Shown one piece after another: positions 16,854 through 22,916 of a stretch of 64,000 nt of DNA (position 1 is the stretch's first letter; each line of letters opens with the position of its first letter). The stretch spans positions 1 to 64,000 of the forward strand of contig JAJYZC010000009.1 of NCBI GenBank assembly GCA_021800255.1. Reading direction: 5' to 3'. The stretch comes from Acidobacteriota bacterium (GTDB taxonomy: Bacteria > Acidobacteriota > Terriglobia > Terriglobales > Acidobacteriaceae). The translations under genes were made by a program, and so were the position numbers. Below the pieces are notes generated by a model that was not told where the DNA came from, did not search any database, and saw only the letters and a list, made by a program, of their open reading frames with translations.

Positions 16854-18554
16854 TCATTCCCTTCTCCCCATGCGCGCGAAGCGGGGGACCGCGATCAAGG
16901 TAATCGCAAACAAGAAGATCGAAGCTGCGGAAAACTCCAAATGGCGGACGCGCAGGTCTTCAAATACCAGCTTCACGGCCAGCAGGACCAGCGCGGCGTA
17001 GCTGATGCGGGTCAGCTCCTTGCGCCGCCAGCGCGCGCCGCTGAAGGCCAGGGCGAGCGCCGCCGCGCAGATGGTGAAGGTGCGAATGAACGCCAGATGA
17101 TGAGGAGCGGGAATCACGCGCAGCGCGACGAGCGCCATCAGCCCCTTGACCAGCAGCGCCGCTGCCGCGCCCACCGCCAGAAGCGCGGAGACAATGTGAA
17201 GAGCCTGCGGCCTCCGCCGCTCCTCGGGCACGGGCTTGGCCGCGGCATAGCAGAGGATCGCGCCCGCCGTGGCCAGGTAAACGCTCCATCCCGGTGCGCC
17301 CGAAAGGCCATCGGCCAGGGCGTGGAAGCAGTAACCCAGCAGGCCGGAGAGAATTGCCGCCGCCAGCAGGTACGCTGCGCCGTGAAACTCCAGCGCCAGC
17401 CGGTTGAGCCGTGCGCCGAGGGCCGTAACCTCAATCGCCGCCAAAATAAGAACCATCGTCAGCCACAAGGGCGGCAGGCACAACAGGCCGCCGCCCAAAA
17501 ACAGCGCCGCGCTCCAGGTGGCGAAGATGCGGTAATTGCGCCGCTCGGCAAGACGGTCAAAGACCAAGAAGACCGCTGCATAGCCAACGGCTGACAAAAT
17601 CATGCAGAAAACGCCGAGAGCGATCGTGCTGCCGCGCGGTCCGAAGTAGAGCACGCTGGAGGCGCCCAGCAGGAACGCGATCATGGTCTGAACCGTCTCG
17701 AAGACGGTGATCGTCTTCCGCTGGAGAACGGTTTTGAAGCTCACGCTCCCGGCAAAGATCAGGAACAAGGCCAGACTCGGCGCCAGCAACGCGCCCCTGC
17801 CCAGCGCCGGGTAACTGAGGTGGGCATTGGACGGGCCGGAGTAGATGAAGATCAACCCCCAAATAGCCGCATCGGCCGCCAGCGCCACCAGCGGCCGTAC
17901 GCTCAACTCGTGACCGCGTTCCCCCGCGAACTCGGCCAGCAGAACCATAAGCAGGAGCACCGCGAGGAAGGGAACGATCTGATGCGAGGCGGCCGATAAG
18001 CCCAGGGCCAGCGCCGCCACGGTGAGATTCGCCACCCAGAAGACGGAAGCCAGATCGCGCTTCCACGCCAAGGCCGATGCCGCAATCACAAACCCGCCCA
18101 GCACGATGGCGGTCATAGGGACGGAAATCACTTTGAAGCGGAGGGTAAGCTCCCAGAGCATGGGCGCCAGGATCAGGGCTGAAGTGCAGGCATAGGTCGT
18201 GCTGGCAAACCATGCGCCTGCCGGCGCTTGCGCCGCCCAGATCAGCCAGAGAATTGCGTAGGCGATGGCCACCGCGGCTACCGCCGGCTTGGGCAGCGCG
18301 CTGGATTCCGCCACGGCGCGCAGAACGTAGGCTCCGGCGATGCCCAGCATGGCCTTGCCCAGCACCGGGAATGCGCCCCCGGTCAATGCGGAGAAAAGTC
18401 CTTCGCCGACGGGCGCCGGCTGCGAAGGAACCGGCTCCGCAGCAGCCGGCGCACAGGCTGCGCCGGAGGAATGCTCAAGGGCATCAATGCGCCGCTCCAG
18501 CGCCTCTAGGCGCTCGGCCAGCCGTTCGTATGCGTCGCCGGGAAGATCGCCCAT
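16854..18554 (-). CDS. DUF2339-like polytopic membrane protein
   Basis: 566 aa. The N-terminal cytoplasmic coiled-coil (YERLAERLEALERRIDALEH) and Ala/Pro linker precede roughly 16 TM helices. The coiled-coil plus many-TM layout and the FPVLGKAMLGIAGAYVLRAVAES start of the membrane part resemble DUF2339 proteins, whose function is unknown. The start at 18554 is chosen because the track extension runs through a low-complexity stretch. It lies 56 bp downstream of the NrfD gene on the same strand and may be the last gene of that operon. Confidence 0.75.
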   Translation of the reverse strand: MGDLPGDAYERLAERLEALERRIDALEHSSGAACAPAAAEPVPSQPAPVGEGLFSALTGGAFPVLGKAMLGIAGAYVLRAVAESSALPKPAVAAVAIAYAILWLIWAAQAPAGAWFASTTYACTSALILAPMLWELTLRFKVISVPMTAIVLGGFVIAASALAWKRDLASVFWVANLTVAALALGLSAASHQIVPFLAVLLLMVLLAEFAGERGHELSVRPLVALAADAAIWGLIFIYSGPSNAHLSYPALGRGALLAPSLALFLIFAGSVSFKTVLQRKTITVFETVQTMIAFLLGASSVLYFGPRGSTIALGVFCMILSAVGYAAVFLVFDRLAERRNYRIFATWSAALFLGGGLLCLPPLWLTMVLILAAIEVTALGARLNRLALEFHGAAYLLAAAILSGLLGYCFHALADGLSGAPGWSVYLATAGAILCYAAAKPVPEERRRPQALHIVSALLAVGAAAALLVKGLMALVALRVIPAPHHLAFIRTFTICAAALALAFSGARWRRKELTRISYAALVLLAVKLVFEDLRVRHLEFSAASIFLFAITLIAVPRFARMGRRE

Positions 18555-18610: not shown

Positions 18611-19786
18611 TCAGTCGGCCAAAGCCGGGTGCGCGCTTTTTTCCGGCCACGGCGGCAGCAGCTTCAACAGCACCCACAGGAAGAACAGCGGCAGGAGGAT
18701 CAAACCAATCGCCACCAGCAGGCCCTCATGCGTCGCCAGGGCCATCTTGTAGGTGGTGTAGCCCAGGAAACTCTTCGAAAACAACTGCCCCCCGATGACC
18801 ACGTTCCAGCGCATGGCGAAGACGCTGATCAGGATCAGCGCGCCGCAAAAAGCGTAGATGCGCTTGCGGGCGATCTCAGGCATCTTGACGATCTGCACCA
18901 GGAACAACAGAACCAAGGGCAGCACCGTGCCCAGCCAGATTTGCAGCACAATCTGCGAGAAGTAGAGTTTGGTGTGCACCAGAAAGTCCAGGGTGCGGAA
19001 GGACTCGTCGGCCAGGTAGATGCGGTGTACCAGGTCGAGCATCTCCAGGGTGAAGTCGATGACGAAGATGTAGAACATGTACTTGGCCACGGTGTCCAGG
19101 CAGAGCATGTCGATCTTCTGGCCGCGCATTTTGGTAAGCGCCATGTAGAGGAGCATGACGGCGGCGATGCCTGAGACCATGGCGGAAAAGATGAAGACAA
19201 CAGGCATCAAGGGCGACGACCACCAGGGATTGGCCTTGAGCGAGCCGAAGATGAAGCCCACGTAGCCGTGCAGCAAAACGGCCGAGGGAATGCCGACCAG
19301 GGTGACGATCCAGCCCGCCTTCTCGTCCACGCGCAGCGAGCCCTCGCTGATGTTGCTGGAGCCCAGCGTAAGGATGCGGTAGATGAGGCGCTTGATCCCC
19401 GTGGTTTGTTGCGACCACAGCACGATTTCGCGGCGGTAGTCGAGCCATATCTCGAACAGCAGCACCGCCATCAAGTACCAGAGGTAGATGTAGCCGAACA
19501 TGGCCATGGCCGAAGTGTCGTGGGGGGTGAAGTACATCTCGTAGCAGCGCTCCGGATGGCCGAGGTGAAACAGCAGCGGCAGCGGCGCGACGATCAGGAA
19601 GGCGAGAGCCGTGAGCATCGCCAGCCGGTAGGTGGGCTTCACCGCCTCCACGCGGAAGATGCGCTCCAGCGAGGCCAGAATGAAAGCTCCCGCCACCAGC
19701 CCCGTAATGTAGGGATACAAAACGATCAGTATGCTCCAGTAGAGCCTGATCTCGTTCGGATACATGTAACCTTCCACGCCGGTCAT
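18611..19786 (-). CDS. NrfD/PsrC-family quinol-interacting membrane subunit
   Basis: 391 aa with about ten TM helices, the NrfD/PsrC/DsrP-type subunit that exchanges electrons with menaquinol. Recognisable features are the early YITGLVAGAFILASLERIF helix, FHLGHPERCYEMY and LHGYVGFIFGSLKANPWWSSPLMPVVFIFSA. It is the third gene of a cytochrome-ferredoxin-NrfD set, in the same order as dsrJOP, but no DsrMK, molybdopterin or catalytic subunit is adjacent. A 44-bp C/T-rich spacer with tandem CCTAGTC words separates it from the ferredoxin gene. Confidence 0.9.
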   Translation of the reverse strand: MTGVEGYMYPNEIRLYWSILIVLYPYITGLVAGAFILASLERIFRVEAVKPTYRLAMLTALAFLIVAPLPLLFHLGHPERCYEMYFTPHDTSAMAMFGYIYLWYLMAVLLFEIWLDYRREIVLWSQQTTGIKRLIYRILTLGSSNISEGSLRVDEKAGWIVTLVGIPSAVLLHGYVGFIFGSLKANPWWSSPLMPVVFIFSAMVSGIAAVMLLYMALTKMRGQKIDMLCLDTVAKYMFYIFVIDFTLEMLDLVHRIYLADESFRTLDFLVHTKLYFSQIVLQIWLGTVLPLVLLFLVQIVKMPEIARKRIYAFCGALILISVFAMRWNVVIGGQLFSKSFLGYTTYKMALATHEGLLVAIGLILLPLFFLWVLLKLLPPWPEKSAHPALAD

Positions 19787-19787
19787 T

Positions 19788-19826
19788 CCTAGCTCCTAGC
19801 CCCTCAGTCCCTAGTCCCTAGTCCCT
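19788..19826. repeat. Short tandem CCTAGTC-type repeat in the operon spacer
   Basis: The spacer between the ferredoxin and NrfD genes consists mostly of variants of a 7-nt word (cctagct, cctagcc, cctcagt, ccctagt, ccctagt). Possibly a slippage-prone spacer; no known function. Confidence 0.6.
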
Positions 19827-19830
19827 TTCT

Positions 19831-20565
19831 TTACCGCACCGATCCGTCCAAATCGTTGTAAAAAACCTTGGCCCCCGTGGCCATATCCGGTTTCAAGATG
19901 TGCACGGTGTGGGTTCTCAAAAACTCGTGAATGGGATCCTTGGGATTTTTCAAGTCGGCCAGTTGCCGCGCGCCGGTGGGACAGGCTTCGCAGCAGGCCG
20001 TGGTCAGCCCCTTGGTGATGCGGTGGTAGCAAAGCGTGCACTTGTCCGCCACGTGCTTGGTGGGATGAATGTAGCGGCACCCATACGGGCAGGCCTGCAC
20101 GCAATAGCCGCAGCCCATGCAGTACTTCTGGTCGATCAGCACCACCCCGTCCGGGGTGATGAACGTCGCCCCCACCGGGCAAACCTGGGTGCAGGGCGAA
20201 TCCGCGCAATGGTTGCACAGCTTGGGAACGAAGAAGTAGATCCCGTCGGGGTCTTCGCTGACCGGGGGAAATCCCTCCTTGCCGCCGTCGGGTGAAATCA
20301 CCTGCGGCCGGTCCAGATGCCAGTCGGTACGGTGATACTCCTCCACCCAGGTGCGGAAGAATCCGTCGGGGACATCGTTTTCAGCCTGGCAGGCGCGCAC
20401 GCAGTTGCCGCAGCCGATGCACTTCGAGACATCGATCAACATACCCCACCAGTGATCGGTCATCGTGTAGTTGGGCGCGCTCTCCGGCGTCCCCGCAAGC
20501 ACCGATTTCCAGGCCACCGCGGCGGCCGGCAACAGAAGAAGAACATGGCGGCGGGTTATATTCAC
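19831..20565 (-). CDS. Tat-exported ferredoxin-like protein with four [4Fe-4S] clusters
   Basis: 244 aa electron-transfer subunit. The N-terminus (ITRRHVLLLLPAAAVAWKSVLAG) resembles a twin-arginine signal. Sixteen cysteines form four cluster motifs: CIGCGNCVRAC, CNHCADSPCTQVC, CMGCGYCVQAC, and CTLC...CCEAC. This is the NrfC/DsrO/PsrB-type pattern. The start is a GTG overlapping the cytochrome stop (GTGA) with GGGAGGT 5 nt upstream; the track start within the cytochrome gene is wrong. It should pass electrons between the tetraheme cytochrome and the NrfD subunit on the periplasmic side. Confidence 0.92.
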   Translation of the reverse strand: MNITRRHVLLLLPAAAVAWKSVLAGTPESAPNYTMTDHWWGMLIDVSKCIGCGNCVRACQAENDVPDGFFRTWVEEYHRTDWHLDRPQVISPDGGKEGFPPVSEDPDGIYFFVPKLCNHCADSPCTQVCPVGATFITPDGVVLIDQKYCMGCGYCVQACPYGCRYIHPTKHVADKCTLCYHRITKGLTTACCEACPTGARQLADLKNPKDPIHEFLRTHTVHILKPDMATGAKVFYNDLDGSVR

Positions 20566-21047
20566 TGCGCACCTCCCGCGTTGGATCCCGAACCGATGGC
20601 CGGACTGTGGGGGTTGTGGCAGGTTTCGCAAGCCACGCCGTTGGCATGCTCGGCCGCCACTACCTGCGGAAAGCCCTTGGGCCGCGCGGCGCTGGCCTCG
20701 TGACAGCGAACGCACAGCGTGGCGGTATTCGGCAAGACTGGAACCACGGCGGCCGGATTTTCAACGTGGCCTTCCAATGGCCCGTGACAGGCCTCGCAGT
20801 TTACGTGCGCGTGCGCGCCGGCGGCCTTCGTAGCCACAATGTCCGCGTGGCACTCCGCGCAGGCCTGGTGGCCGGCAAAATGCAGCGGGTTAGCGGCGAT
20901 CTCCCCAATGGCCGCTGCGCGATAGTGCCCGTATTCTCCAAATGTCTTGGGAACTACGAAGCCGCGCACCACCAGAAAGATCAGAAAGAGGACGACGAAG
21001 ATCCCCACGAACCGGAAGAGGTGTCCAGCATCCTTTAAAACGCTCAT
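20562..21047 (-). CDS. Membrane-anchored tetraheme cytochrome c
   Basis: 161 aa. A single N-terminal TM helix (FVGIFVVLFLIFLVVRGFVV) anchors a periplasmic domain with four CxxCH heme sites: CAECH, CEACH, CVRCH and CETCH. Size and layout fit small quinol-linked cytochromes such as DsrJ/NrfH/QrcA-like subunits. First gene of the electron-transfer operon; its stop overlaps the ferredoxin start. The redox partner and terminal acceptor are unknown because no catalytic subunit lies nearby. Confidence 0.9.
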   Translation of the reverse strand: MSVLKDAGHLFRFVGIFVVLFLIFLVVRGFVVPKTFGEYGHYRAAAIGEIAANPLHFAGHQACAECHADIVATKAAGAHAHVNCEACHGPLEGHVENPAAVVPVLPNTATLCVRCHEASAARPKGFPQVVAAEHANGVACETCHNPHSPAIGSGSNAGGAQ

Positions 21048-21416
21048 TGAACTCTATCTCCGTCCTGCTGCTGCCAGCAGGCTCTGCGGCTCTATCCCTT
21101 TCGTGTGATCTGAAACGCTTATTGCTCTGACGCTACAGGAAAATAAGATGGGGACCATGTGAGCACAATCACGTGCAGATGTGATCTTTCGCACTTTTTC
21201 ACCCTGCTCGCCCGGCATGATCCTCGCTCAACGAGGCTCCATCCGCACCTGCTTCTTCTGATTTCTGAAGGGTTTGTGCGCAAGAGCGGGAGTTCCCCCA
21301 AAGCCTGTTCCATAGCGGGGCGTGCGCTGCGGCCTGTCGTCAGGTCACACGATATATCCTTGCGGCTTTGCCGGAAGGGCGATGCAGCGCGCTTTTAGAT
21401 GGCCTTGCGGGCAGAC
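21048..21416. other. Intergenic region upstream of the cytochrome operon
   Basis: 369 bp between the cytochrome gene and the OprB gene, both on the minus strand. It contains the CRP/FNR-like palindrome at 21158-21173. A 79-codon plus-strand ORF (21159-21398) has no start context or recognisable features and is not called. No convincing terminator was seen. Confidence 0.5.
21158..21173. promoter_or_regulatory. CRP/FNR-family-like operator
   Basis: TGTGA-GCACAA-TCACG matches the TGTGA-N6-TCACA consensus of CRP in 9 of 10 positions. It sits about 110 bp upstream of the tetraheme cytochrome start. An Fnr/Crp-type regulator controlling a respiratory operon would make sense, but the regulator is not in this window. 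Confidence 0.45.
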
Positions 21417-22916
21417 TCAGAATTCGGTGTGAAAGCGAAAGGAGGAGACGGCGACCGGACCACGCACCTGGTTATAGCCGGGATTGTTGATGTGCTGAAA
21501 ATCGTATGAGGCATAGAAACCGCGCCACAGGTGAGCGGTGTAGAAGCCCTCAACGATCTTTTCGTGGCCATACGTCAGCGCGCCGTCGCCGAGCAGAAAG
21601 CCGAGTCCGCCCAGCGCCAGATATTGCTGGTGCGCAGCCACAATGCCGTTCATCACAAAGGCCGCGCCGGCGCGGTCCGCGGGCCTCTTCCATTTGCTTC
21701 CCATGGTGAATCCGCCCAGCTCCAGCGTGCGGTCGTCCTCGGTGTAGCAGTAGGATTCGTTGCGGCCGTCGCTCCAGCCCAAGCGGCCGAAGACGCCTAT
21801 GCCGGACGTGACGGCCTGCTCGAAGTTCAGCCCGAAGCCGTATCTGTGGCGTCCCTGCCGCCGCGTGGCGATGATGTCCGGTGTCGCCGTCTTGTGGGCG
21901 AGAAACTCCCCAATCGCTTCTTCGTAGTTCCCCATGTCGGCGTGATTGAGATAGCTCAGCAGGCGCACCGCGCCTGGCCGGTGCGCGATCCGGCTGCCTT
22001 GAAGATCAAACTCTAAGTTTTCCGAGCGCGCCCGCGCCACGTCGGCGTCCAGATAGATTCCGTTGGCCGTCTTCGGCATCAACGCCTCGGCAAAGCGCGC
22101 CGCAAAGCCGCGGTCGTCGTATTCCACCATTGCGCCATCCGTATAACCGCGGGTGTTGGCCGCGTAGTCGTAGGCCCCGTCGTTGTCCACGGTCCAGTTC
22201 ATGAACTGAAGGTGGCTGTCCGATCCCCAGGTGTTGGTATCGAAGAAATCCACCAGGTCGAACTTGCCCAGGCGGAATTCGAGCCGCCGTGCGGGCAAAC
22301 TGGTGGCCAGGTCCAGCTCGTCGCGTTGCGCGGCTACGCGGCTGTTGCTCAGCGGGATAATCTGCCGCACCATGAGCCGCGCCAGGTAGGGCGCCCTGGA
22401 AAGCGCCACCCCCTGCACCAGCCGCACCGCGTCCAGATTGGTATAGCCGGCCAGTCCATTGGCGTTGCCGATGCCGTCGCCGGTCGCGTCTTCGAGATCA
22501 GCAAATACCTCCGTATCCGGCGTCAACTCGTAGCCGGTGTAGAGCGTAAGCACATGGGTCGTGGCGCTCTGCGCCCACGCCGTCAGGCTGTTGGGTCCGC
22601 TGTACTTTGCCGGGAATGCCGGGTGATCCTGCAGGATGATGTTCGCCTGGCCCGAAATCCAGTAGCGCGCGGCTTCGGAGTGGGGAAAGAGCGCGGCCGG
22701 AGTGCCGGCATCGTCCGCAGAGGTCCGGCATGCGCCGGCTGCAGGTGATGCGCCGGCCGGCGCATGGGCGCTGCAATGGGGGGTCTGCCCAACCGCGGCT
22801 GCGGCGGCCAGGGCCAGCCCCAGACACATGCCGAGGCTCACGGCCAGTGCGTCCGGCCGCGCGAAAAACGCCCGCGCCGCGCCGCGGCGAGACCTGGAAC
22901 CCCGAAACAGAAACAT
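21417..22916 (-). CDS. OprB-family outer-membrane porin
   Basis: 499 aa. Signal peptide in the first ~45 residues (LAVSLGMCLGLALAAAAAVGQ), then a beta-barrel sequence with YWISGQANIILQDHPAFPAKYSGPNSL, the typical N-terminal part of OprB/carbohydrate-selective porins, and a terminal phenylalanine (FRFHTEF) as outer-membrane signal. The start at 22916 has GAGGAGGG 7 nt upstream. The gene is divergent from the RcnR-like regulator and lies next to the Nramp operon. OprB-type porins beside Nramp genes suggest metal entry, although sugar passage is the classical role. Confidence 0.85.
   Translation of the reverse strand: MFLFRGSRSRRGAARAFFARPDALAVSLGMCLGLALAAAAAVGQTPHCSAHAPAGASPAAGACRTSADDAGTPAALFPHSEAARYWISGQANIILQDHPAFPAKYSGPNSLTAWAQSATTHVLTLYTGYELTPDTEVFADLEDATGDGIGNANGLAGYTNLDAVRLVQGVALSRAPYLARLMVRQIIPLSNSRVAAQRDELDLATSLPARRLEFRLGKFDLVDFFDTNTWGSDSHLQFMNWTVDNDGAYDYAANTRGYTDGAMVEYDDRGFAARFAEALMPKTANGIYLDADVARARSENLEFDLQGSRIAHRPGAVRLLSYLNHADMGNYEEAIGEFLAHKTATPDIIATRRQGRHRYGFGLNFEQAVTSGIGVFGRLGWSDGRNESYCYTEDDRTLELGGFTMGSKWKRPADRAGAAFVMNGIVAAHQQYLALGGLGFLLGDGALTYGHEKIVEGFYTAHLWRGFYASYDFQHINNPGYNQVRGPVAVSSFRFHTEF

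Follow-up and report, generated by a model that had tools for sequence, protein, structure and literature searches.

A cytochrome, iron-sulfur and NrfD operon of Acidobacteriota that probably passes menaquinol electrons to periplasmic multiheme cytochromes

We examined a four-gene operon in a 64,000-nucleotide stretch of the genome of a soil acidobacterium (hereafter the window), the products of which probably build a membrane complex that moves electrons from the quinone pool to periplasmic multiheme cytochromes. Because the module has the architecture of the Geobacter Cbc4 complex and lies behind a palindrome shared with a decaheme cytochrome cluster, ccmFH, feoAB and a Rieske/cytochrome b cluster, its most likely role is to oxidise menaquinol at low oxygen on behalf of a multiheme network in the periplasm, perhaps for extracellular electron transfer.

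Organization of the operon and its cofactor sites

All four genes lie on the minus strand. The first (20562–21047) encodes a tetraheme cytochrome c of 161 aa with one N-terminal transmembrane anchor and four CXXCH motifs; it matches Cytochrome_C554 in Pfam (E=9e-9), and an alignment of its homologs reveals six further invariant histidines that are possible distal ligands. Its stop codon overlaps by 4 bp (GTGA) the GTG start of a 244-aa iron-sulfur protein of the NrfC/DsrO/TtrB kind (19831–20565), which carries the twin-arginine leader ITRRHVLLLLP, predictive of Tat export, matches Fer4_11 (Pfam, E=1e-23) and has PsrB (2vpw_B) as its best solved relative. The 16 cluster cysteines of this protein, corresponding to four [4Fe-4S] clusters, are invariant in 26 homologs (the motif and cofactor-residue alignments comprised 22–26 homologs each). 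After a gap of 44 bp follows a membrane subunit of 391 aa and about nine transmembrane helices (18611–19786), which is a member of the NrfD family PF03916 (125.4 bits against a gathering cut-off of 25.8, E=5e-36). A further 56 bp separates it from the fourth gene (16854–18554), encoding a DUF2339-like polytopic membrane protein of 566 aa with about 18 helices and an N-terminal soluble helix.

Residue roles have been described for E. coli NrfD, including a quinone site, a pathway arginine and a proton path (PMC8076601). In the window NrfD, residues Y24, H74, S92 and Y175, which align with the proposed quinone site, are invariant, as is R326, which matches the pathway arginine; the proton-path residues are partly changed (E149 to T, E228 to A and K246 to S). 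With quinone-site and cofactor residues intact, the earlier note's suggestion that the module transfers electrons between menaquinol and the periplasm gains support.

Upstream of the operon, between positions 21417 and 25239, lie genes for an OprB-type porin, a CsoR/FrmR-type repressor and an Nramp metal transporter, and these are absent beside the module in its relatives.

Conservation of the module among Acidobacteriota

When a single genome of each species was scanned for the NrfD subunit, matches came from Acidobacteriota alone and marked 77 further, distinct loci. The trio of cytochrome, iron-sulfur and NrfD genes stands in unchanged order at nearly all loci whose contig extends far enough, the iron-sulfur and NrfD proteins are 63–88% identical across the 77 loci, and every intact cytochrome homolog of a window-type trio has four hemes. 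Constancy of order, identity and heme number argues that the trio is no chance arrangement. Motifs, Pfam matches and conserved order thus confirm that the trio had been correctly read from the sequence, including its dsrJOP-like arrangement (cytochrome, iron-sulfur protein, NrfD), which is kept in relatives. The outer flanks of the module vary between loci, and no catalytic gene is conserved beside the trio at any of the 77. More distant relatives of the module have a cytochrome with eight hemes, and a search of plasmids found only distant NrfD proteins (24–32% identity).

Among 159 genomes drawn evenly across the phylum, 23 have window-type NrfD, so the module is accessory and patchy; within the window's own family, it is confined in this draw to the window's genus. 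The cultured strain Occallatibacter savannae AB23 (L073) is one of the carriers.

Several loci have further features. In five (L110, L112, L114, L115 and L121), the gene directly upstream of the trio encodes a protein with 12 hemes, the N-terminus of which resembles that of ImcH (helices and CX3CH), while three (L113, L114 and L119) have a window-type trio and a DsrP-like module in tandem or interleaved. At L120 and L126, Rieske/cytochrome b genes and cytochromes of 9 to 11 hemes adjoin the trio. Loci L123 and L124 are the same in sequence and come from genomes placed in different families (G055 and G142), one of which probably contains a binning error.

Search for a catalytic partner

The window contains no molybdopterin enzyme, DsrK or NrfA, which bears out the earlier observation that the trio has no DsrMK, molybdopterin enzyme or nitrite reductase beside it. 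We examined the rest of the genome through family searches and selected stretches. Contig C54 (L081, L105) carries DsrAB, DsrC, a complete DsrMKJOP, all five subunits of which exceed their curated cut-offs, and a second DsrK-like protein; the window therefore comes from a dsr-carrying acidobacterium. Alternative complex III (ACIII) lies with its own oxidase on contig C7. Two molybdopterin-family proteins were found, one inside the complex I cluster in the NuoG position and one other, whose likely start, MAASSPFRVVHAVCSHDC, has no export signal. NrfA is absent from the genome by this search. A missing catalytic subunit encoded elsewhere was thus sought among molybdopterin enzymes, DsrK and NrfA, and none fits: DsrMK comes with a JOP of its own, ACIII stands apart and the additional molybdopterin enzyme has no export signal.

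These results bear directly on the possibility that the module is the membrane anchor of a conventional periplasmic reductase (a molybdenum enzyme or a nitrite or sulfite reductase) encoded at a distance. The iron-sulfur subunit is indeed closest to TtrB, PsrB and NrfC, which serve such reductases, but the sole molybdopterin enzyme outside complex I has no export signal, NrfA is missing, none of the 77 loci holds a catalytic gene and the cytochrome takes the position and number of a catalytic subunit. For reductases of the MccA and octaheme types, the coverage was solely that of a general search for multiheme proteins. We regard this explanation as improbable.

The genome does contain candidate multiheme partners, which we assigned using published traits of multiheme families (PMC6295460). 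A cluster on contig C52 encodes, in order, a decaheme cytochrome of the DmsE/MtrA family (above cut-off), an 894-aa protein, a monoheme cytochrome and an ImcH-like cytochrome, the last of which has helices at its N-terminus and contains a CX3CH motif. The 894-aa protein has no Pfam or PDB match and ends in phenylalanine, as outer-membrane barrels do; from its position and this C-terminal residue we call it a putative outer-membrane barrel. On contig C81 lie genes for two 11-heme proteins, one of which is fused to cytochrome b561 and resembles CbcL. Other genomes likewise have the decaheme gene paired with the barrel gene, several of them together with ImcH; in the window's genome, there is no linkage between the decaheme/ImcH genes and the module.

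Evidence against membership in the Dsr, Nrf, Ttr, Qrc, ACIII and Hyb complexes

Against curated equivalog models, the iron-sulfur subunit scores best with TtrB (188 bits against a cut-off of 416), followed by DsrO (154.9 against 200), NrfC (140.5 against 377.6) and QrcC (93.9 against 400). The NrfD subunit scores best with NrfD (56.1 against 347.6), then DsrP (32.5 against 350), and has no match to QrcD. No subunit reaches the equivalog cut-off for Dsr, Nrf, Ttr or Qrc. In a tree of 31 NrfD rows, all window-type sequences fall into a single clade (100/99), to which the eight-heme relatives attach, and DsrP, ActC and HybB branch elsewhere; the deep placement is uncertain because several reference rows are long-branched. 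The iron-sulfur tree likewise groups the window type with the eight-heme type (99/99). A search of the NrfD profile against PDB sequences returned nothing at E<=1. Taken together, curated models and trees speak against membership in the Dsr, Nrf, Ttr, Qrc, ACIII or Hyb complexes, and so the known complex with a remote catalytic subunit that the earlier note had considered as an alternative was found neither by family assignment nor in the genome.

Composition points the same way. The window module shares with DsrJOP the order of its genes, and DsrO is the second-best curated match of its iron-sulfur subunit, but its cytochrome has four hemes where DsrJ has three, DsrMK is not alongside, the subunits fall below the DsrO and DsrP cut-offs in a separate NrfD clade, and a true DsrMKJOP is encoded elsewhere in the genome. 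From NrfABCD it differs in its NrfC and NrfD scores, both below cut-off, and in the absence of NrfA. ACIII has a pentaheme ActA, a long ActB and two NrfD-like subunits, whereas the window has a single NrfD and a short iron-sulfur protein. QrcABCD and NhcABCD resemble it in combining a multiheme cytochrome, an iron-sulfur protein and NrfD, in having no redox-active molybdenum and in being quinone-linked, but the window has neither QrcB nor NhcD, has four hemes rather than six or nine, and gives a low QrcC score and no QrcD match.

Similarity to Cbc4 and a proposed path of electrons

Geobacter Cbc4 (CbcSTU) is a menaquinol:ferricytochrome c oxidoreductase without a catalytic subunit (PMC11434368), and CbcS-2 of G. 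metallireducens has four hemes (PMC10989804). By published composition, Cbc4 and the window module have the same parts in identical order, namely a cytochrome c, a four-cluster iron-sulfur protein and an NrfD-type subunit, and the window module is likewise without a dedicated catalytic subunit, both across the 77 loci and in its genome, where none fits. The two differ in that no DUF2339-like gene is described with CbcSTU and in that the window type is an acidobacterial clade with its own palindrome.

There are further precedents. FeS/NrfD-multiheme complexes of Melioribacter and MBNT15 are proposed to hand electrons from quinol on to multiheme cytochromes of the periplasm during iron reduction (PMC9386147); they too join an iron-sulfur/anchor module to a multiheme cytochrome, and the description considered here mentions no DUF2339-like partner. 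Shewanella SirCD, an iron-sulfur and NrfD pair like that of the window, is a quinol dehydrogenase for periplasmic acceptors that can replace CymA (reported in PMC11434368); it differs in being originally tied to the sulfite reductase SirA and in that this source describes no tetraheme subunit of its own. Given these precedents, an absent catalytic subunit is normal for such complexes, and what the earlier note treated as an anomaly is a composition shared with Cbc4 and with the Melioribacter and MBNT15 complexes.

From these comparisons, we consider it likely, on sequence grounds, that the operon encodes a menaquinol:cytochrome c oxidoreductase like Cbc4, which would supply a multiheme network of the periplasm or outer membrane that is regulated together with it, and we hold with greater confidence still that it needs no catalytic subunit. 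The NrfD subunit would oxidise menaquinol on its periplasmic face. The electrons would travel along the four [4Fe-4S] clusters of the Tat-exported protein, reach the anchored tetraheme cytochrome and leave it for multiheme cytochromes that are soluble or reside in the outer membrane, with no dedicated catalytic subunit as acceptor. That the final outlet is extracellular electron transfer we rate as an even chance. The DUF2339-like protein may serve as an accessory or integral membrane subunit.

A shared palindrome defines a candidate regulon

The CRP/FNR-type palindrome TGTGAGCACAATCACG (21158–21173, no strand assigned), one mismatch from TGTGA-N6-TCACA, lies about 110–126 bp upstream of the cytochrome start, and a weaker copy with two mismatches, TGTGATCTTTCGCACT (21180–21195, no strand assigned), lies 22 bp from it, a spacing of paired sites seen again in several relatives. 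Allowing at most one mismatch within 350 bp upstream of the cytochrome, TGTGA-N6-TCACA is present at 52 of 75 loci, with 0.6 expected from local shuffles. It is missing at Bryobacterales and Vicinamibacteria loci and in the distant relatives. Upstream of the module loci, classical FNR boxes (TTGAT-N4-ATCAA) are weakly enriched and CooA-type boxes are not.

The whole genome contains nine perfect copies of TGTGA-N6-TCACA (the reversed control pattern has 0), all of them intergenic as far as the ORF maps show. Four precede the decaheme cluster, ccmF-ccmH, feoA-feoB and a cupredoxin/oxidoreductase/Rieske/cytochrome b cluster; the others precede a monoheme cytochrome (two copies), an FAD oxidoreductase and an amidohydrolase, or lie near purC. 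Divergent from the decaheme cluster is a gene for a CRP/FNR-family protein (L097:5227–5979, minus strand) with an N-terminal CX2CX8C motif and the recognition helix RETVTR, which we take to be CRP-like and to fit TGTGA half sites; judging from its motifs, this regulator likely reads the TGTGA-N6-TCACA sites.

The shared palindrome thus links the trio with multiheme cytochromes and with the maturation of cytochromes and the uptake of Fe(II), and it narrows the unknown periplasmic partner of the earlier note to co-regulated multiheme cytochromes. In the proposed scheme, a CRP/FNR-type regulator would control, besides the operon, the MtrA-type decaheme/barrel/ImcH cluster and the genes for maturing cytochrome c and taking up ferrous iron, and would switch the operon on, probably at low oxygen; the palindrome regulon as a whole may be a low-oxygen programme.

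Such a regulon also bears on whether the module is instead a stripped or alternative complex III that reduces the cytochrome c of terminal oxidases in aerobic respiration. ACIII is itself a multiheme/iron-sulfur/NrfD complex and the genome has three COX1-type proteins, but ACIII adjoins its own oxidase, no examined locus has the module next to an oxidase and the regulon points to anaerobic functions, which makes this role very improbable.

Co-occurrence and the direction of electron flow

Among the 159 genomes, the decaheme family is found in 19 of the 23 that carry the module (it is absent from four) and in 64 of the other 136 (p=0.0015), and DsrK is found in 8 of 23 against 8 of 136 (p=0.0004); these counts ignore kinship. 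The association with DsrK would suit a reversed complex, in which periplasmic or extracellular donors such as Fe(II) reduce menaquinone by way of the tetraheme cytochrome and so feed, for example, DsrMK-dependent sulfite reduction. Qrc and Nhc, also built of cytochrome, iron-sulfur and NrfD subunits, run from cytochrome c3 to menaquinone (PMC8076601), and feoAB in the regulon could also suit Fe(II)-rich niches. Nevertheless, 15 of the 23 module genomes have no DsrK, and the resemblance to Qrc is slight, with QrcC far below cut-off, QrcD unmatched and QrcB absent here. Reverse flow is therefore unlikely in our estimation, though less so than the reductase-anchor and complex III roles, and we continue to favour oxidation of menaquinol for the multiheme network.

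The module is also present (L077) in CO124, a published MAG of a sulfate reducer. The authors of that study assigned the NrfD proteins of CO124 to Dsr, Qrc, HydB and DmsC (PMC10564751), whereas we find six NrfD-like proteins in it, one of them in the window's clade. Six exceeds the four published groups, and the module NrfD may therefore have been filed under another complex, for example Qrc.

The DUF2339-like protein as a recurrent partner

The DUF2339-like gene follows NrfD in 66 of the 77 loci at a median gap of 42 bp (less than 200 bp in 61 of the 66), in agreement with the earlier guess that it belongs to the module. The window protein has no match to PF10101 (gathering cut-off 33.6); the best of the weak homolog matches, that of L062, reaches 31.9 bits (E=8e-8) over almost its full length, and the protein is at most a remote relative of DUF2339. 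An AlphaFold2 model is confident (pLDDT 89, about 18 helices), and in a fold search it matched no solved structure at E<=0.001; the hits obtained, at E>0.03, were all look-alikes built of helical repeats. The literature searched contained no functional study of DUF2339.

Homologs occur in 23 of the 159 genomes. Four of the 23 neighbourhoods adjoin a window-type trio (G000, G151, G050 and G051), and 11 adjoin a second module consisting of a tetraheme cytochrome, an iron-sulfur protein and a DsrP-family NrfD with no DsrMK alongside (L138, L140, L158–L164, L166 and L167). This second module comes mostly from one genus, in genomes of about 3.3 Mb; its NrfD exceeds the DsrP cut-off in 3 of 3 tested, and L160 shows a 4-bp overlap. 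Since 10 of the 11 cases fall in one genus, they represent few independent events. One homolog adjoins ImcH, two adjoin a Rieske/cytochrome b or cytochrome b/multiheme cluster and five are not adjacent to such modules. At L137, Rieske/cytochrome b genes and cytochromes of 9 to 11 hemes adjoin the DUF2339-like gene.

An obligatory partnership with the trio was considered and set aside: with at most 8 candidates scored per genome, the two co-occur in 6 of 23 module genomes against 17 of 136 others (p=0.11), and elsewhere the gene adjoins other quinol:cytochrome modules. From its gene neighbourhoods, the protein seems to be a new, previously unrecognised recurrent partner of quinol:cytochrome modules.

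Implications

Acidobacteriota are abundant in soil and peat, and most cultured members are described as aerobes. If the proposed function is correct, many soil and peat Acidobacteriota, including the sulfate-reducer relative CO124, have a regulated pathway for the export of electrons from respiration to multiheme cytochromes. More tentatively, the DUF2339-like protein might be an unrecognised subunit, whether ion-conducting, energy-coupling or for assembly, common to several quinol:multiheme-cytochrome complexes of Acidobacteriota (with window-type NrfD, with DsrP-like NrfD having its own tetraheme cytochrome and no DsrMK, with ImcH or with Rieske/cytochrome b), which in many soil members of the phylum, dsr carriers included, would form an oxygen-regulated electron-export system. 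Recurrence beside quinol:cytochrome oxidoreductases, together with a confident model that has no solved look-alike, gives DUF2339-like membrane proteins a first testable context.
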